Numbered from the stretch's first letter, positions 40,046-53,500 are shown. The stretch: 53,500 nt of DNA from Candidatus Rokuibacteriota bacterium (GCA_030647435.1 JAUSJX010000106.1:1-53500); one strand, 5' to 3'. Program-made: numbers and translations. The notes: generated by a model from the letters alone, not told the origin.

Positions 40046-41806
40046 ATGGCCGACATTCTCCGCATCGCCAACTGCAGCGGGTTCTACGGCGACCGGCTGT
40101 CGGCCGCGCGGGAGATGGTCGAGGGCGGGCCCATCGACGTGCTGACGGGCGACTACCTGGCCGAGCTGACCATGGCGATCCTCTACAAGAGCCGCGCGAA
40201 GAAGCCGGAGACGGGCTACGCGACGACCTTCGTGACCCAGATGGAGCAGGTGCTGGGCGCCTGCCTCGCCAAGGGGATCAAGGTCGTGGCGAACGCGGGC
40301 GGGCTCAACCCCGCGGGCTGCGCCGCGGCGGTGCAGGCCGTCGCGGACAAGCAGGGGCTCAAGCCGAAGATCGCCTACGTCACCGGCGACGACGTGCTGG
40401 ACAAGCTCGACGAGTGGCAGCGGGCGGGCCACGCGCTGGCGCACCTCGACCGAGGCCGTCCGTTAAATGATCTGCGCGCGCCCGTCGTCACCGCCAACGC
40501 CTACCTCGGCGGCTGGGGCATCGCCCTAGCGCTGGCCCAGGGCGCCGACGTCGTCATCACCGGCCGCGTTACGGATGCCGCGCTGGCGCTCGGCCCCGCG
40601 GCGTGGAGGTTCGGCTGGAAGCGCGACGACTGGGACCGCCTCGCGGCGGGCGTCGTCTGCGGGCACATCCTGGAATGCGGCGCCCAGTGCTGCGGCGGCA
40701 ACTACTCCTTCTTCCAGGAAGTGCCGACGTACACGAAGATCGGCTTCCCCGTGGCGGAGATGGAGGCCTCCGGCGAGTTCGTCGTCACCAAGCACCCAGG
40801 CACGGGCGGCCTCGTCTCCGTCGGCACCATCACGGCCCAGCTCCTCTACGAGATCGGCGGGCCGCGCTATCTCAACCCCGACGTGACCGCGCGCTTCGAC
40901 TCGATTCGTCTCGCCCAGGACGGACCCGATCGCGTGCGCGTGAGGAGCGTGAAGGGCGAGCCGCCGCCGCCCGACACGAAGCTCTGTCTCAACTACTTCG
41001 GCGGCTACCGGAACACCATGACCTTCGTGCTGACGGGGCTCGATATCCCCGAGAAGGCCAAGCTCATCGAGGACACCTTCTGGGGCATGGTGGGCGGGCG
41101 CGAGCGCTTCGCGGAAGTCGCGGTCTCCCTGCGGCGCTCGGACCAGGAGGACCCCGAGTCGAACGAGTCGGCGCAGGCCCTGCTCAAGATCACCGTGAAG
41201 GATCCCGACGGCGCCAAGGTGGGGCGCGCCTGGTCGAACCGCGCGATCGAGATGGCGCTCGCGCACTACCCCGGCTTCCACATGACCTCGCCGCCGACCG
41301 AAGAGACGGCCTACGCCGTGTACTGGCCGGCGCTGGTGCCGTCGCGGATGATCGAGCAGGTGGTGCACGTGGGTGGGCGCGCGATCGCCATTCCGCCAAC
41401 GATGAGCGAGGGCCGAGACATGGCCTCCGCACTTCCCCAATCCGCGGCTGTTCCGCCGCCGCCGGGCGCCAAGACGGTCCGGGCGCCGCTCGGGCGGGTT
41501 GTGGGAGCGCGCTCGGGAGACAAGGGCGGCAACGCCAATGTCGGCGTCTGGGCGCGCACTCCCGAGGCGTATGCGTGGCTCTGCTGGTTCCTGACCGCCG
41601 AGCGGCTCAGCCAGCTCCTGCCCGAGGCGCGCGGCCTCGAGGTCGAGCGCTACCTCCTGCCCAATCTCCATGCGGTCAACTTCGTGATCCAGCGTCTGCT
41701 CGGTGAGGGGGTGTCGGCCTCGACGCGGAGCGATCCCCAGGCCAAGAGCCTGGGCGAGTACCTGCGCGCCAAGGTCGTGGACGTCCCGGAAACGCTCCTC
41801 GGTTGA
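40046..41806 (+). CDS. AtuA/DUF1446 family protein
   Basis: 586 residues beginning MADILRIANCSGFYGDRLSA. Blocks DVLTGDYLAELTMAIL, GIKVVANAGGLNPAGCAAAV, GADVVITGRVTDAALALGPA and ILECGAQCCGGNYSFF match DUF1446, the family of AtuA from acyclic terpene utilisation in Pseudomonas. The C-terminal 110 residues (VVGARSGDKGGNANVGVWAR onward) form the second conserved AtuA-like domain, here fused. It probably takes part in breakdown of branched or hydroxy-acyl-CoA compounds; the biochemical activity is not established. TTGA overlap with xthA downstream. Confidence 0.85.
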   Translation: MADILRIANCSGFYGDRLSAAREMVEGGPIDVLTGDYLAELTMAILYKSRAKKPETGYATTFVTQMEQVLGACLAKGIKVVANAGGLNPAGCAAAVQAVADKQGLKPKIAYVTGDDVLDKLDEWQRAGHALAHLDRGRPLNDLRAPVVTANAYLGGWGIALALAQGADVVITGRVTDAALALGPAAWRFGWKRDDWDRLAAGVVCGHILECGAQCCGGNYSFFQEVPTYTKIGFPVAEMEASGEFVVTKHPGTGGLVSVGTITAQLLYEIGGPRYLNPDVTARFDSIRLAQDGPDRVRVRSVKGEPPPPDTKLCLNYFGGYRNTMTFVLTGLDIPEKAKLIEDTFWGMVGGRERFAEVAVSLRRSDQEDPESNESAQALLKITVKDPDGAKVGRAWSNRAIEMALAHYPGFHMTSPPTEETAYAVYWPALVPSRMIEQVVHVGGRAIAIPPTMSEGRDMASALPQSAAVPPPPGAKTVRAPLGRVVGARSGDKGGNANVGVWARTPEAYAWLCWFLTAERLSQLLPEARGLEVERYLLPNLHAVNFVIQRLLGEGVSASTRSDPQAKSLGEYLRAKVVDVPETLLG

Positions 41807-45270: not shown

Positions 45271-45512
45271 GGAACGTCTCGCGTAATCAACCAGTTGGCT
45301 GATGCCCCCCCCTGGGCTTTTTTTGCCGTCGCAAACGGCCCTGGGTCAGTTGGGGATCTTTACATGTCGGCCGGGAGCGGTTTGCGCAGGTAGACGTATC
45401 GTACGGTCTCTAAAGTGTTTTCTTAATCTGGCACCCCTTGTGCTCCCCAAAACCTTGGACGCGTTGTCTCGTCACGCCACAACGAACTGGACTCCTTGCG
45501 GGGGGAATAGTC

Positions 45513-46193
45513 ATGAGGAGACTGCTGGCGCTTGGGCTTCTCGTATGCGCGATGACGGCTGTTCAGGCCGAAGGCGCTGTGATCGTCACGAGCGATAAGG
45601 TGACCTTCCTCACCTCCACCGGCGCAACCAGTGCCACCGGTCCGCTGCCCGACCTCGGCACAGCCACACCACAGCCTGTTACCGTCGGATCCATCACGTT
45701 CAGCTCGCCGCCGCCCAGCACTGTCGTCATCGGTGTGGCCGGGCATGGGATTCTCGATTGGACGACGCTTCTGCCCGGAAACGATATCGCCATCAACGCC
45801 GTCGAGAACCTCAACATGGTGTCGGCCGCGCCCGTTTTCGCAATGGGTTTCGATTTCGTCGAGCCGGCCCTTGGTGGCAGCACCACCGACACCTGCTTCG
45901 TGGCGATCTGCACGGATTCGACCTTCGCGGTCACCGTGAAGAACGGATCGACGATTATCCACGCCTTCACGTTCAACGCCGCGGACGATGTCGCGGCGTT
46001 CGTCGGCGTGTGGTCGTCGGACGCCTTCGATCGCCTCGAAATCCGCGAGCTCAACAATACTATCGACGACGAATTCTGGGGCCAAGTCTATACGGGTGAC
46101 CGCCCCCTGCCCGCCGTCCCAGCGCCCATGACGCTCGCCCTGTTGGGCGCCGGTCTTGCCGGTCTCGGCCTGATGCGCCGGTGCGCGCGCTGA
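45513..46193 (+). CDS. PEP-CTERM-like secreted protein
   Basis: 226 residues from ATG 45513. Signal peptide MRRLLALGLLVCAMTAVQAE, a beta-rich body with one C-F-V-A-I-C pair, and a C-terminal sorting tail PAPMTLALLGAGLAGLGLMR followed by RCAR: a Pro-containing variant of the PEP-CTERM tripartite signal (motif, membrane helix, basic end). Expected to be processed by an exosortase and placed at the cell surface; no exosortase gene is in the window. Codon use is slightly less GC-biased than its neighbours. Confidence 0.75.
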   Translation: MRRLLALGLLVCAMTAVQAEGAVIVTSDKVTFLTSTGATSATGPLPDLGTATPQPVTVGSITFSSPPPSTVVIGVAGHGILDWTTLLPGNDIAINAVENLNMVSAAPVFAMGFDFVEPALGGSTTDTCFVAICTDSTFAVTVKNGSTIIHAFTFNAADDVAAFVGVWSSDAFDRLEIRELNNTIDDEFWGQVYTGDRPLPAVPAPMTLALLGAGLAGLGLMRRCAR

Positions 46194-46346: not shown

Positions 46347-47072
46347 ATGGCTCTCAGATCATTGACCCTGGGGTTTGCTGTCGTGGTGGGGGTCGGGGCG
46401 GTTCTACTTTCGACCGAGGCGGGCGCCGTACCGGTCACGAACCCGAGCTTCGAGGCCGTCCAGATCGGCTCACCGTTCTTCTCGACGAACGTCGCCGATG
46501 TTCCGGGCTGGACGCGCTCCGGTGCGGCGGGTGACGCGGCAGTGTGGCATGTCGGCTATGTAGACGGGGGTGGAAGCATTACGGTCGCCGGCGAGGGCAA
46601 TCAGTTCGTCACCCTCGGCGGCGGAGCCAGCGGATCGGTGGGCGAGACGCACTGGTCGCAGACGATCGGTGGCTTCGTGCCGGGGCTGGACTACGCGCTG
46701 AGCTTCATGATGGCGACCGAGCACGGCACGGACCTGCCGGAATTCGCCATTTCACAAACCATCACGGTCTCACTCCTTTCGGGCTCCGATACAGCCGCGC
46801 AGTCATTCACGGAGGATGCGCCTGACGGCGCGAACTATTGGCGAGTCTGGGTGACGAAGCTCATGGTGTTCCACGCGACGGATTCAACCGTTACGCTGGA
46901 TTTCGGTTCCATCACGCCATTTGACGTCGGCCTGGACAACGTGCGCATCGACGCGGCGGCGGTCCCTGAACCCGGCTCCCTGCTTTTGCTCGGCATCGGA
47001 CTGGCGGCCCTCGTGCTGTCGAGCGCAGGCGCTCGTCTCACCCGCGCGGCGTGGAGGTGCGGTCGCCCGTAA
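46347..47072 (+). CDS. PEP-CTERM sorting domain protein
   Basis: 241 residues, GAGGAGG upstream of ATG 46347. Signal peptide MALRSLTLGFAVVVGVGAVL, then a carbohydrate-binding-like beta sandwich (VPVTNPSFEAVQIG, PGWTRSG, FDVGLDNVRIDA), ending with the classic VPEPGSLLLLGIGLAALVLS tail and a basic end. The body resembles the PEP-CTERM 'DUF642/choice-of-anchor' type proteins. Exported and anchored via exosortase. Likely co-regulated with the similar gene upstream. Confidence 0.85.
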   Translation: MALRSLTLGFAVVVGVGAVLLSTEAGAVPVTNPSFEAVQIGSPFFSTNVADVPGWTRSGAAGDAAVWHVGYVDGGGSITVAGEGNQFVTLGGGASGSVGETHWSQTIGGFVPGLDYALSFMMATEHGTDLPEFAISQTITVSLLSGSDTAAQSFTEDAPDGANYWRVWVTKLMVFHATDSTVTLDFGSITPFDVGLDNVRIDAAAVPEPGSLLLLGIGLAALVLSSAGARLTRAAWRCGRP

Positions 47073-47705: not shown

Positions 47706-49052
47706 ATGACCACTCCGATACGCATCGCCCACTACCTCAACCAGTTCTTCGCCGGCATCGGCGGGGAGGAGCGCGCAGACGTCGGCGTGTCCGTGCGGGA
47801 GGGGCCGGTGGGCCCGGGCCGCGCGCTCCAGGCCGCTCTGGGCGACGCGGCGCGGGTGGTGGGCACCGTGATCTGCGGCGACAACTTCATCAACGAGAGC
47901 CCGGAAGCGGCGCTGGCGGCCATCGTCGCGCATCTGCGCGAGCTGGCGCCCGACGTGGTGGTGGCGGGGCCGGCTTTCGGCTCCGGGCGCTACGGCCTGG
48001 CCTGCGGCATGGTCTGCCGCGCGGCGCGGGAAGCGGAGCTCCCGGCTGTGACCGCCATGCATCCCGAGAACCCCGGCGCCCTCGCCTACCGGCGGGAAAT
48101 CATCATCGTCCCCGCCGGCGAAAGCTCCACGTCCATGCAGCCGGCGCTGGCGGGGTTGGCACGGCTCGCCCTCAAGCTCGGCCGCGGCGAGCCGCTCGGG
48201 CCCGCGGAGATCGAGGGCTACATTTCCCAGGGTACCCGCCTGGTCTGGGACCGCGGCCGCCCCGGCTACCAGCGCGCGCTCGACATGCTGCTGGCCAAGC
48301 TCCACGGCCGGCCCTTCGTCAGCGAGGTGCCGTTCCGCGCCCCCGAGCGCGTGACGCCGGCCCTTCCCATCGCCGATCTCTCGCGGGCGCGCATCGCCAT
48401 GGTCACGACGGGCGGGCTCGTGCGCAAGGGCAACCCGGACAAGCAGGTGGCGGCCAATGCCACGCGCTACCACCGCCATTCGGTGAAGGACCTCGAGGCC
48501 CTGACCCCGGAAGGCTGGGAGGCCTACCACGCCGGCTACTTCAACCACATCGTCAACCGGAATCCGAACTATATCCTGCCCCTGTCCTTCCTGCGCGACC
48601 TCGAGGGCAAGGGGCAGATCGGGCGGGTGCACGAGTCGATGTACGCGCTGCCCGGCGTCTCGACGCCGGTGGCCATGGCGCGCCAGCTCGGGCGCGCGAT
48701 CGCGGAAGATCTCAAGGCGGGTGGGGTGGAGGGGGTGCTCCTCGTCGCCACCTGAGGCACCTGTAATCGTTGCGGCGCAACGATAGCCAAGGAGATCGAG
48801 CGGGCCGGGATCCCGGTGGGGATGATCTCGGCCATCTACACCTTCGCGATGACCACGGGCGCCAACCGGGTGATTCGCGGCGCCCGCATCGAGCATGTCT
48901 GCGGCGATCCGAGCCTGGGGCCGGAGAAGGACTACGCCTACGGGATGCGCATCGTCCGGAAGGCTCTCGAAGCGCTCACCGTCCCGGTGATGGGACCCAC
49001 CCTCTTCGACCCCCAGGCGGGGGACATCCAGGAGCCGAGCCATGCGTCTTGA
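47706..49052 (+). CDS. grdB: Glycine/sarcosine/betaine reductase component B, selenoprotein subunit (GrdB-like)
   Basis: 448 residues with Sec350 at TGA 48753-48755. The N terminus IRIAHYLNQFFAGIGGEERA, VREGPVGPGRAL, GTVICGDNFINE and VAGPAFGSGRYGLACG are classic GrdB. After the UGA the frame continues GTCNRCGATIAKEIERAGIP and TTGANRVIRGARIEHVCGDP, the conserved GrdB C terminus, so A-T-U-G-T-C matches the family Sec motif. TGA at 48755 alone would give a non-functional 349-residue product. In Clostridia this subunit with GrdE activates the substrate amine and passes a carboxymethyl group to the Sec of GrdA. Start ATG 47706 (GGGAGA upstream). A strong SECIS-like hairpin follows the UGA. Confidence 0.92.
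48753..48784 (+). promoter_or_regulatory. UGA codon and SECIS-like hairpin of grdB
   Basis: UGA at 48753-48755; 18 nt later a GGC triloop (48774-48776) closed by a perfect 8-bp stem, ATCGTTGC (48766-48773) with GCAACGAT (48777-48784). This position and loop suit SelB-dependent selenocysteine insertion. Confidence 0.8.
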
Positions 49053-50352
49053 GCTGGGGAGCTTCCCGGTCCGCACCATCAGCTTCGGTCCGGCCACGCG
49101 GTGGGATGCCGGGCACCTCACGGTGGACCGGGCGGCGGCGCTCCGCGAGGTGCGGCGCGACCCGCGTATCGTCACCGCCGACCTCGAGCTCGCCGCGCCG
49201 GGCGACTCCGTGCGCATCTGGCCCGTGCGCGACGTGATCGAGCCGCGGATCAAGGTGGAGGGGCCCGGGCAGTGCTATCCGGGCATCTGCGGGCGCGACG
49301 TCACGACGGTGGGCGAGGGGCGCACGCATCGGCTGTCGGGGATGGGCGTGGTCGAGGTTTCGAGCGTCAACTGGCACGACGCCGGCGGCGACTTCGTCGA
49401 GACCTACCTCGACATGGCCGGTCCCTTCGCCGAGATGTATCCCTACCAGCGCCTGCAGCTCCTCTGCGCGGTGGTCGAGCCCGACCCCGCGCTGTCCGAC
49501 GAGAGCCGCAACGACGCCGTCCACAAGGCAGCGCTGACCGTGAGCGATCACGTGGCGCGCGCCACCGCGGGCCTCACGCCGCCCGAGCGCGAGACGTTCG
49601 AGCTGACGCCATGCGACCCGGCGCTACCGCGCGTGGCCTATATCTGGGGCGTGCACTCGCCGCAGGCCATGTCGGGCTCGCTCACCGCCTTCTGCACGGC
49701 GACCTACGGGCTCACCCAGCTCACGCCGCCGTGGATGCTCCACCCCAACGAGATCATCGACGGAGCGCTCACCGGCCCCTACCGCACGGCCTTCGCCATG
49801 TCGTGGACGGTGGCCAATAATCCGCTCTTCCTCGACCTCTTCCGGCGCCACGGCAAGGACTGGAACTTCCTCGGGGTGATCGTGCTCCGCACCGAGTGGA
49901 CGACCCAGCACGAGAAGCAGATGATCGCCAACCAGACCGCCAAGACCGCCAGGATGCTGGGGGCCCAGGGGGCGGTGGTGACGTGGGACGCCGGCGGCAA
50001 CGAGTTCATCGAGGTGGTGCGCACCATCCAGGCCTGCGAGCGCCTCGGCATCAAGACGGTGTTCCTCACCAGCGAGGACGACGCCACCGACGGCGCGCCC
50101 ACCATGCTCGAGCCGCTGCCCGAGGCCGACGCCATCGTGAGCACGAGCTTCTTCAAGAACGTGACGCTCAAGGTCGCCGACCCCGGGCCGGTGAGCCGCG
50201 TGATCGGCCTGGAGCGGAAAGTCATCCACCGCGGCTCGGGGGTGGGCCTACACGGCGGCTCGGACTCCGCGCTGCCGACGGCCGGGACGCTGCCGCCCCC
50301 GTGGCGTTACGACGACCACTACGGCTTCGGCAGCCTCTCGTGTATCGAATGA
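49042..50352 (+). CDS. grdE: Glycine/sarcosine/betaine reductase component B alpha/beta proprotein (GrdE-like)
   Basis: 436 residues. ATG 49042 overlaps the grdB stop by 11 nt with AGGAG at 49030-49034. Family features: LRLELGSFPV-type start, VIEPRIKVEGPGQCYPGICG, LDMAGPFAEMYPYQRL, RVAYIWGVHSP, and FRRHGKDWNFLGVIVLRTEW. In clostridial GrdE a Cys (near residue 242, in a G-N-C context as I recall) is cleaved and becomes the pyruvoyl group. Here the aligned stretch reads DGALTGPYRTAF (Tyr247), with no Cys. If confirmed, this subunit is not processed and uses different chemistry. The rest of the family pattern is good. Confidence 0.88.
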   Translation: MRLELGSFPVRTISFGPATRWDAGHLTVDRAAALREVRRDPRIVTADLELAAPGDSVRIWPVRDVIEPRIKVEGPGQCYPGICGRDVTTVGEGRTHRLSGMGVVEVSSVNWHDAGGDFVETYLDMAGPFAEMYPYQRLQLLCAVVEPDPALSDESRNDAVHKAALTVSDHVARATAGLTPPERETFELTPCDPALPRVAYIWGVHSPQAMSGSLTAFCTATYGLTQLTPPWMLHPNEIIDGALTGPYRTAFAMSWTVANNPLFLDLFRRHGKDWNFLGVIVLRTEWTTQHEKQMIANQTAKTARMLGAQGAVVTWDAGGNEFIEVVRTIQACERLGIKTVFLTSEDDATDGAPTMLEPLPEADAIVSTSFFKNVTLKVADPGPVSRVIGLERKVIHRGSGVGLHGGSDSALPTAGTLPPPWRYDDHYGFGSLSCIE

Positions 50353-50368
50353 CGGGCGAGCGGTGCGT

Positions 50369-51823
50369 ATGACGGAAACGACGCTCGCTAGGCCGGTGAT
50401 CCGCGGCGTGCGCTTCTTCCTGGCCCATGCCCCGGGGCTGGTATGCCACGGCTCCAAGCCCAGCCGCGACATTAAGCGCGAGCCGGCCGTGAAAGCGCGG
50501 ATCCAGGCTGCGCTGCGTCCCTTCGAGGCCGCCCGTGACTACCCGCCCACGCAGGTCCTCCTCGGCGCCCTCCACCCTGACGCGCTCCACGACCTGCCGC
50601 GGCCGTGGTTCGGCGTGGGCAAACCCGGTGAGCGCCGTGGTCCTCACGGCGAGATCGCCCCCGAGGAGGAGCTCTACGGCCTCCTCAAGATCGCCGACGC
50701 CTTCGATCTGGTGAGCATCGAGCGCGGCTTCGTCGCCCAGGCGCGCGCCGCTCTTTCCGCGCATCCCCTCGTGACGCCGGCGGATCTGGCGCGGCTCGGC
50801 GACGGCGTGGCCGACGGCGAGATCGCCGCGCGACTGGCCGGGACGCTGCCCGCTCTGCCGCTCACGCTGCGCTCCGGCCGGCGGGTGGGGGCCATCGTCG
50901 CGGGCCACGAGGTGGACGCCACGCTCTCGGCCGACGTGCTCCTCGAGAACCTCGCGACCAAGGTCACCGCCGCGATGGCGCTGCGCGGGCTTCTCGCTGC
51001 CGAGGGCGTCGAGGCGGCATCGATCGACTACGTGCTCAATAGCGGCGAGGAGGCGGTGGGCGACCGCTACCAGCGCGGCGGCGGTAATCTTGCCAAGGCG
51101 GTGGCCGCCGAGGCGGGCTGCGCCCGCGCCACCGGGGTCGACGTCAAGGGCTTCTGCTGCGGTCCCCTGCATGCCCTCGCGCTAGCCGGCGGCCTCGTGG
51201 CCTCCCGCGTGTTCGAGCGTGTGGCCGTGGTGGCCGGCTGCTCGCTGGCCAAGCTCGGCATGAAGTACCAGGGGCACCTGCTCCATCAGCAGCCCGTGCT
51301 CGAGGACGTGCTGGTGGGCGCGGCGATAATTGTCGCTGCCGACGACGGGCGCTCGCCTCGCCTCCGGCTCGACGTCCTCGGCCGCCATACGGTCTCGGCC
51401 GGCTCGTCGCAGAAGGCCATCCTCGAGGCGCTGGTGGTCGAGCCTCTCGAGCGGCTCGGGCTCAAGTTCACCGACGTGGACAAGTACGCCACCGAGCTCC
51501 AGAATCCCGAGCTGACCGAGCCCAGCGGCAGCGGCAATGTGCCGCTCCTGAACTACCGGGTCATCGCGAGCCTCGCCGCCCTCCGGAAGGAGATCGCGCC
51601 CGCCGACGTGGACGGCTTCGTGCGGCGGCACGGGCTGCCGGGCTTCTCGCCCACCCAGGGCCATATCGCCTCGGCCATCCCGTTTCTCGGCCATGCCCTC
51701 GACGGCCTGCGCGAGGGCCCGCTGCGCCGCGTCCTGCTCCTCGCCAAGGGCAGCCTCTTCCTTGGCCGCATGACCCAGATGGCCGACGGTCTCTCGGTGC
51801 TGCTCGAGCGCAACGACTCATGA
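50369..51823 (+). CDS. grdC: Glycine/sarcosine/betaine reductase component C beta subunit (GrdC-like)
   Basis: 484 residues from ATG 50369 (GTG 50363 is possible). GrdC signatures: RFFLAHAPGLVCHGSKPSR, GRRVGAIVAGHEVDATLSAD, SIDYVLNSGEEAVGDRYQRG, CGPLHALALAGGLVASRVFE and the C-terminal GFSPTQGHIASAIPFLGHAL then GSLFLGRMTQMADGLSVLLE. It is related to FabH/thiolase folds. In the clostridial complex GrdC with GrdD receives the acetyl group from Se-carboxymethyl-GrdA and releases acetyl phosphate. No grdD lies next to it here, so the acyl acceptor step is unclear. Confidence 0.9.
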   Translation: MTETTLARPVIRGVRFFLAHAPGLVCHGSKPSRDIKREPAVKARIQAALRPFEAARDYPPTQVLLGALHPDALHDLPRPWFGVGKPGERRGPHGEIAPEEELYGLLKIADAFDLVSIERGFVAQARAALSAHPLVTPADLARLGDGVADGEIAARLAGTLPALPLTLRSGRRVGAIVAGHEVDATLSADVLLENLATKVTAAMALRGLLAAEGVEAASIDYVLNSGEEAVGDRYQRGGGNLAKAVAAEAGCARATGVDVKGFCCGPLHALALAGGLVASRVFERVAVVAGCSLAKLGMKYQGHLLHQQPVLEDVLVGAAIIVAADDGRSPRLRLDVLGRHTVSAGSSQKAILEALVVEPLERLGLKFTDVDKYATELQNPELTEPSGSGNVPLLNYRVIASLAALRKEIAPADVDGFVRRHGLPGFSPTQGHIASAIPFLGHALDGLREGPLRRVLLLAKGSLFLGRMTQMADGLSVLLERNDS

Positions 51824-51839
51824 TGATCGGGGAGGACAC

Positions 51840-52301
51840 ATGAACCTCAAGGGCAAGAAGGTGATAGCGCTGGGCGAGCGTGACGGCGTGCAGGGCGGCG
51901 CGCTGGCCGCCTGCGCCCGGAGTGCCGGCGCCGAGGTGGTGCTGGAGAAGACCTACTGCTTCGTCTGAACGGCGGCCGGCGCCCTTGACCTGGAAGGTCA
52001 AGACGAGATCAAGCGCGTGGCGGAGCGATTCCACAAGGAGGACCTCGTGGTGCTGCTCGGCACGCCCACCGAGGACAGTAGCCGTCTCTACGCCCTGACC
52101 GTGACCAGCGGCGACCCATCCTGGGCCGGCGCGCTGGCCGGCGTGGCGCTCGACCTGCCCGTCTATCACGTCGCCGAAGAGGCGCTCAAGACCCAGATCT
52201 CCCCGGCCGACTACGAGGAGCACGTGGCGCTCATGGCCATGGCCATGGATGTGGACGCCATCGCCTTGGCCGTGCGCGGCGTGCGCGAGGGCCAGGGCTG
52301 A
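51840..52301 (+). CDS. grdA: Glycine/sarcosine/betaine reductase selenoprotein A (GrdA)
   Basis: 153 residues with Sec43 at TGA 51966-51968; start ATG 51840 with GGGGAGG upstream. The redox motif reads Y-C-F-V-U-T-A-A-G, identical in form to GrdA's C-F-V-U. Upstream MNLKGKKVIALGERDGVQGG and downstream LVVLLGTPTEDSSRLYALTV, GDPSWAGALAGVALDLPVYH and EEHVALMAMAMDVDAIAL all fit GrdA at its usual length. It is the selenol carrier of the complex, which is reduced by thioredoxin. An SECIS-like hairpin follows the UGA by 23 nt. A C-to-TGA mutation is implausible given the family. Confidence 0.95.
51966..52002 (+). promoter_or_regulatory. UGA codon and SECIS-like hairpin of grdA
   Basis: UGA at 51966-51968; 23 nt later a GGA triloop (51992-51994) on a perfect 8-bp stem, CTTGACCT (51984-51991) with AGGTCAAG (51995-52002). 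Confidence 0.8.
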
Positions 52302-52788: not shown

Positions 52789-53500
52789 ATGAGGCAGCGC
52801 GTCACACGATCACTGTGGATTCTGACCTGCTTCGCCATCATCGCGACGCTCGGGCCGGCAGTCCGGGCCTCCGCCCAGGACAAGCCGCGCTACGGGGGCG
52901 AGCTGGTCTTCGTGGTGGCCGCCGAGCCGCCGGGCTTCGACGGGCACCGGGAAGAGACGTTCGCGATGCTCCACCCGGTCGGGCCCCATTACAACACCCT
53001 CCTGCGGGTGGATCCCGTCGACAAGACAGGCACGAAGTTCATCGGCGACCTGGCCGAGTCCTGGACCGTCTCCGCCGACAAGCGCACCTACACCTTCAGG
53101 CTGCGGCAGGGCGTGAAGTTCCACGACGGCAGCGTGATGTCGTCCAAGGACGTGAAGGCCTCCTACGACAAGATCATCTTCCCCCCGGCGGGCGTCGTCT
53201 CGAGCCGCCAGGCCGCCTACAGGGCGGTGGAAGCGGTGGAAGCCCCGACCGCCGACACTATCGTCTTCCGGCTGAAGTGGCCCGAGGCGTCCTTCATCGC
53301 CAACCTGTCCTCGCCGTGGAACTGGATCTACAAGGCCGACATCCTCGCCAAGGACCCGCACTGGTACGAGAAGAACGTGATGGGGACGGGGCCCTTCAAG
53401 TACGTGGAGTACGTGCGGGGCTCGCACTGGATCGGCAAGAAGAACCCGGACTACTGGGACAAAGGCAAGCCCTACCTCGACGGCTACCGCGCGATCTTCA
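52789..53500 (+). CDS. ABC transporter substrate-binding protein, family 5 (partial at window end)
   Basis: 237 codons visible, running off the end. GGAGG precedes ATG 52789; an extended -10 (TGC-TATCAT, to 52754) lies upstream. Signal peptide MRQRVTRSLWILTCFAIIAT with cleavage near ASA-QDK, then the SBP_bac_5 fold: KPRYGGELVFVVAAEPPGFD, LAESWTVSADKRTYTFRLRQ, GVKFHDGSVMSSKDVKASYD and VMGTGPFKYVEY. It probably imports a peptide or other organic solute. Its position directly after the grd cluster might point to import of that pathway's substrate, but it has its own promoter. Confidence 0.88.
   Translation, partial: MRQRVTRSLWILTCFAIIATLGPAVRASAQDKPRYGGELVFVVAAEPPGFDGHREETFAMLHPVGPHYNTLLRVDPVDKTGTKFIGDLAESWTVSADKRTYTFRLRQGVKFHDGSVMSSKDVKASYDKIIFPPAGVVSSRQAAYRAVEAVEAPTADTIVFRLKWPEASFIANLSSPWNWIYKADILAKDPHWYEKNVMGTGPFKYVEYVRGSHWIGKKNPDYWDKGKPYLDGYRAIF

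Follow-up and report, generated by a model that had tools for sequence, protein, structure and literature searches.

The window, a stretch of 53,500 nucleotides analysed here over its full length, carries near one end four genes that a first-pass annotation had read as a glycine-reductase-type selenoprotein cluster, cleaving amines reductively to acetyl phosphate, though perhaps on another substrate. Which compound does such a complex act on in a GC-rich, non-clostridial bacterium, and what becomes of the two-carbon unit? Automatic annotation would label these genes as glycine or betaine reductase and thereby credit uncultured lineages with Stickland-type acetyl-phosphate formation, but two missing parts say otherwise. 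The window is the entire contig C106 of a 5.79 Mb genome that is 98% complete, and the contig stops at 53500; statements on the source genome as a whole rest on profile searches.

A four-gene cluster with two selenocysteine codons

The genes grdB, grdE, grdC and grdA are intact at 47706-52301 on the plus strand, and both coordinates and curated models agree with the order and orientation first proposed. The grdB-like gene (47706-49052, plus strand), encoding selenoprotein B, scores far above cut-off with TIGR01918 (434 bits, cut-off 65) and PF07355 (397 bits); read through its UGA, it yields 448 amino acids with selenocysteine (Sec) as residue 350 in the motif ATUGTCNRCGAT. It overlaps by 11 nt with the grdE-like gene (49042-50352, plus strand), whose product matches PF09338 with 261 bits. 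The grdC-like gene for component C subunit beta (50363-51823, plus strand) starts with GTG at 50363, an ATG at 50369 being also possible, and reaches 574 bits with NF040746 (cut-off 450), while the grdA-like gene for selenoprotein A (51840-52301, plus strand) specifies 153 amino acids upon reading through its UGA, with Sec as residue 43 in the motif CFVU, and matches NF040748 (192 bits, cut-off 130) and PF04723 (187 bits). By these profile matches, the cluster can be assigned to the glycine/sarcosine/betaine reductase superfamily, the Grd complex. With clostridial glycine reductase (Thermobrachium, L034; Caloramator, L035) it has in common the GrdA and GrdC equivalogs, the GrdB/GrdE superfamily, Sec in CxxU of GrdA and UxxCxxC of GrdB, and a SECIS element 3' of the grdB UGA; identities are only about 32-53%, and the order B-E-C-A, rightly called unusual at the outset, differs from the clostridial grdE-A-B-C-D.

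Both in-frame UGA codons, at 48753-48755 in grdB and 51966-51968 in grdA, had been taken for Sec codons at the family positions (ATUGTC in GrdB, CFVU in GrdA), an assignment that conservation, dN/dS, a SECIS element and the Sec machinery all support. TGA stands at the same residue in every relative that was read across the codon (21 GrdB and 29 GrdA rows, the window included), and the GrdA matches of the window's phylum contain exactly one TGA in 16 of 16 cases. Moreover, dN/dS 3' of the UGA is 0.05-0.39, similar to the 5' part; because it is equally low on both sides, protein-level selection evidently persists past the UGAs. Conservation in all relatives and dN/dS past the codon together rule out a chance UGA or a sequencing error.

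A SECIS_4 element (Rfam RF01990; 48756-48793, plus strand; 45.4 bits, gathering threshold 38, E 2e-7) begins at the base directly after the grdB UGA and nothing else in the 53.5 kb matches Rfam; the element is also present in Entotheonella (L025, L026), Chloroflexi (L029) and a locus of the same family (L068). In 6 of 17 grdB sequences, both bases of a U-A pair in its stem have changed to give C-G, and the covariation score is above that of all 500 shuffles, which we regard as support rather than proof because the 17 sequences are related to each other. For grdA, folding and comparison with relatives point to a hairpin, CUUGACC-UGGAA-GGUCAAG (51984-52002, plus strand), that, flanks included, reaches -17.4 kcal/mol (z -2.05) and resembles one in the nearest relatives; as Rfam gave no hit up to E 10 and covariation is low, it is only a candidate SECIS. 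The genes selA, selB, selC and selD, whose absence had been named as speaking decisively against Sec decoding, are all present in the source genome: selA (584 bits), selB (380 bits) and tRNA-Sec (71 bits) are neighbours on contig C56 and selD (343 bits) lies on contig C98, each exceeding its curated cut-off. All four grd genes terminate in UGA, so that this codon serves for both Sec and stop within one operon.

Further candidate selenoproteins are found in the same genome. The selD gene (G000:C98:94090-95046, L156) contains one in-frame TGA, and SelD is itself probably a selenoprotein. Two short genes related to GrdB/PrdB (G000:C126:42568-42990, L022, and G000:C66:663-1079, L023) are each interrupted by a TGA that precedes CHQ-type sequence (in L022, VPVUPICHQ) and likely encode selenoproteins, too. 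A fragment at G000:C156:138-380 (L021) matches the N-terminal 85 residues of GrdB with 55% identity, whereupon the similarity stops; it may represent a remnant or an assembly break of a second grdB.

Phylogeny, pyruvoyl site and substrate motifs

GrdA occurs in 16 of the 95 genomes searched from the window's phylum. Judging by GC content, genome size and kinship numbers, this phylum is probably Methylomirabilota, and the window's order Rokubacteriales. The closest named relatives by sequence belong to Candidatus Entotheonella (69-73% for all four proteins), with Chloroflexi next, and the order grdB-E-C-A is common to the window, two Entotheonella genomes, the Chloroflexi locus L029 and the same-family genome G073 (L068). 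The GC-rich, non-clostridial setting remarked on before is not confined to the source genome, for the cluster recurs in Entotheonella, Chloroflexota and further genomes of the window's own phylum. In GrdB and GrdE trees whose reference sets were glycine and betaine reductases, the sequences of the window's phylum, Entotheonella and Chloroflexota form one clade, with a support of 100/99 in both. This clade stands apart from the glycine and betaine reductase sets, the betaine clade itself being supported at 100/100, and the window falls into a five-member subclade with the grdBECA genomes.

The clade lacks the pyruvoyl site of glycine-type GrdE. At this position the grdE-like gene of the window (within 49042-50352) encodes TGPYRTAFAMSWTV in place of Asn-Cys, with TGP-Y-RTAFAMS in the alignment where clostridial glycine types show SGN-C-VSACDKN. 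The clostridial cysteine is residue 243-245, matching position 242, published as the pyruvoyl residue and start of the pyruvoyl peptide in C. difficile GrdE (PMC9908766). Asn-Cys is found in 5 of 5 glycine-type GrdE sequences, in 0 of 29 members of the window clade and in 0 of 5 betaine types; FarE and betaine GrdI are stated not to be pro-proteins, because these cysteines are missing (PMC10838667). What the pyruvoyl group does is under debate (PMC9908766, PMC10298544), so glycine is not strictly excluded by the missing site. A structure prediction for GrdE came out with low confidence (pLDDT 67) and had no PDB match at E 0.001. Two more distant loci of the same class (L055 and L056, in genomes G014 and G028), with GrdD-less C-A-E-B or E-B-C-A sets, show SGNY in GrdE where glycine types show SGNC.

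The motifs of GrdB point in the same direction. Of those described for glycine and sarcosine (PMC9751293), the glycine motif is present in 5 of 5 clostridial references and in 0 of 27 clade members, and the sarcosine motif in none; at the last motif position, the window clade has LPGVSTPV, compared to TVGNGTAV in glycine types and TVGTGTTQ in betaine types. Nor did the window proteins reach any of the substrate-specific curated models in our scan, be it the glycine equivalog TIGR01917 (389 bits, cut-off 602), the sarcosine GrdF and GrdG models (431/800 and 207/780 bits), betaine GrdH (NF040795; 390 bits, cut-off 775), fluoroacetate FarE (NF053623; 133 bits, cut-off 675) or D-proline PrdB (TIGR04483; 78 bits, cut-off 300). 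With the pyruvoyl site and both the glycine and sarcosine motifs missing, the earlier suspicion of a different substrate has become probable, and judging by these sequences we are confident that the cluster specifies a functional, non-glycine Grd-type reductase.

Among known substrates, glycine betaine is a common osmolyte, and several features would be compatible with a new lineage of betaine reductases, or of enzymes close to them, in which the B/E pair binds betaine or another quaternary ammonium acetate and sets the amine free. The GrdE-like protein lacks the pyruvoyl cysteine, as does betaine GrdI by alignment (PMC10838667), the B-type subunits of both carry Sec, and window GrdB has HAG in common with betaine GrdH at the substrate loop. 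However, both window proteins fall outside the fully supported betaine clade, the NF040795 score is about half of what the model demands, other residues stand in place of the betaine signatures SGSFMPxSSKWSTYD and TVGTGTTQAE, and the betaine-bearing genomes examined (L081-L083 for component B, GrdH/GrdI) mostly possess GrdD, so that we consider this reading unlikely.

The failed glycine motif, the missing Asn-Cys, the shortfall against TIGR01917 and the lack of grdD weigh more heavily still against an ordinary glycine reductase that dispenses with the pyruvoyl group and GrdD and leaves acetyl phosphate to another enzyme, or its thioester to hydrolysis. This would account for the same four core subunits and for both Sec residues in UxxCxxC and CxxU, and a suggestion by Andreesen (2004), as cited in PMC9908766, that the GrdE pyruvoyl group possibly serves only the upkeep of GrdB would accommodate its loss, but overall we find it improbable. 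Least probable is a haloacetate reductase resembling the fluoroacetate enzyme FarB/FarE of Cloacibacillus: FarE is the second-best model for the GrdE-like protein and is equally devoid of pyruvoyl cysteines (PMC10838667), yet the score is a fraction of the cut-off, FarB is described as lacking CxxC (PMC10838667) while window GrdB keeps UGTCNRC, and neither a radical SAM gene nor an antiporter gene was observed adjoining the cluster.

GrdD, GrdC and the fate of the acetyl group

In the clostridial complex, the last step toward acetyl phosphate is, according to the older literature, carried by a cysteine of GrdD. GrdC and GrdD together constitute the acetyl-phosphate-making protein C (PMC9908766). 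A grdD gene had been reported as absent from the locus, and the profile search extends this to the source genome, where the component C alpha model NF040747 gave only 23.5 bits against a cut-off of 350. The reported lack of grdX and thioredoxin genes applies, downstream of the cluster, only as far as the contig end at 53500. The same holds for 23 of 23 grd-bearing genomes of three lineages, the source genome included, in which the model stays below cut-off with a maximum of 29 bits, compared to 6 of 7 clostridial and Desulfovibrio references that exceed it (Thermobrachium, Peptoniphilus, Desulfovibrio and three of four betaine-type clostridial genomes). A second, weak match at this level of up to 29 bits is also seen where a true grdD exists; because the source genome's match on contig C73 scores like those in control genomes and like the second matches in grdD-bearing clostridia, we rejected it as grdD and take it for a PlsX-type relative. 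Several of the 23 genomes are incomplete metagenome-assembled genomes, but with near-complete ones among them, incompleteness can hardly explain an absence in 23 of 23. An unrelated enzyme could take the place of GrdD.

GrdC, too, differs: in these lineages it is about 30 residues shorter at its C-terminal end than in GrdD-bearing references, with 14-23 residues after the FLGRMT motif versus 45-51. With both GrdD and the GrdC tail missing, acetyl-phosphate formation as in clostridia is not supported, and given the state of the pyruvoyl site and the GrdB motifs as well, neither is the function originally assigned, reductive amine cleavage to acetyl phosphate.

Where, then, might the acetyl group go? 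The predicted GrdC model (pLDDT 83, pTM 0.90) adopts a thiolase/KAS III fold (best Foldseek E 8e-10); it superimposes on MvaS with a VIA Z of 23.1 (rmsd 3.8 over 287 residues) and, with Z 23.0, on a structure with an acetylated cysteine and CoA, and in the GrdC profile alignment the invariant Cys265 coincides with the KAS III nucleophile. The likeness to the KAS III/HMG-CoA synthase/thiolase superfamily lies in this predicted fold and aligned cysteine; identity in the structural alignments is 12-19%, and GrdC has an extra DUF5940 C-terminal part and belongs to the Grd component C family. Although a shared fold demonstrates neither function nor CoA use, transfer of acetyl to CoA by GrdC in genomes without GrdD is, on the strength of this model, a reasonable proposal.

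As the window and its relatives in three lineages are devoid of the two parts associated with using glycine and with forming acetyl phosphate, their complexes probably act on another carboxymethyl compound and hand over the acetyl group differently. Clostridial enzymes proceed by nucleophilic displacement at the GrdB selenolate, a carboxymethyl-seleno intermediate on GrdA and re-reduction by thioredoxin. By analogy, the GrdB-GrdE pair would bind a small X-CH2-COO- compound whose leaving group X is already activated, such as the onium group of betaine or the halide of fluoroacetate. The GrdB selenolate (U350) would displace X, the carboxymethyl group would end on the GrdA selenolate (U43), and GrdA would be re-reduced by a thioredoxin-like protein. 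GrdC would accept the two carbons on Cys265, as an acetyl thioester, and hand them to coenzyme A, there being no GrdD to form acetyl phosphate. We favour, with some reserve, this reading of a Grd branch with neither GrdD nor pyruvoyl group, in which a pre-activated X-CH2-COO- substrate is cleaved and GrdC probably passes acetyl to CoA; acetyl-CoA as the product, taken singly, we put forward tentatively. The superfamily is well known, and Grd beyond clostridia has already been reported for Chloroflexi in serpentinite systems (PMC9751293) and for a Methylomirabilota genome in which 63 selenoproteins are predicted (PMC13188914). The new part is this branch: within the literature searched, we found no report of it, and no description of these genes in Rokubacteria/Methylomirabilota or Entotheonella.

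Multiple B/E pairs and neighbouring genes

Some relatives have several B/E pairs around one A/C core. One Chloroflexota locus (L142; G364, contig C216, 356-11123) places three dissimilar grdB/grdE pairs around only one grdC-grdA pair within 11.6 kb. Such a layout agrees with interchangeable substrate modules that share a core, a design known from clostridia. New selenium-dependent cleavages of C-N, C-S or C-halogen bonds may exist in such relatives. Conceivably, although we would not yet count on it, the three lineages have a separate kind of Grd system, in which GrdB/GrdE pairs act as modules for various carboxymethyl compounds other than glycine and deliver to a shared GrdA-GrdC core, itself the direct source of acetyl-CoA; if so, selenium-dependent C-X reduction would serve carbon assimilation instead of Stickland-type ATP formation.

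Other genomes of the phylum arrange the genes differently, as E-B ... C-A; here the B/E pair is more distant and GrdB reads UxxSxxC (L059, L061, L062, L065, L066). A D-2-hydroxyacid dehydrogenase gene adjoins this cluster in L062 and L066, and in L066 a taurine-type ABC transporter separates B from C. Thioredoxin adjoins grdA/grdC in L143, L145 and, within the window's phylum, L067, as does an AhpC/TSA protein in L142. Chloroflexota (L144, L147, L148) have binding proteins of the SBP_bac_5 family or whole Dpp/Opp transporters inside or beside their grd clusters. In the window, the start of a gene for a peptide-type ABC transporter binding protein of this family (52789-53499, plus strand; PF00496, 137 bits) follows grdA and is cut by the contig end. 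Its linkage to the cluster is uncertain, and since the family also occurs elsewhere in the contig (15533-17182), it is no evidence on its own.

The neighbourhood did not disclose the substrate either, as downstream the contig ends and the PEP-CTERM-like and catabolic genes upstream have no clear link to the cluster. The 'many flavin oxidoreductases' of the first-pass annotation hold only loosely, two luciferase-like monooxygenases being found among the scanned window genes. Farther upstream, within a run of catabolic genes, lies a gene for an AtuA-family protein with a ferredoxin-like domain (40046-41806; 567 bits), and two adjacent genes closer to grdB (45438-46193 and 46347-47072) encode products with PEP-CTERM-like sorting tails (VPAPMTLALLGAGLAGLGLMRR; VPEPGSLLLLGIGLAALVLSS).
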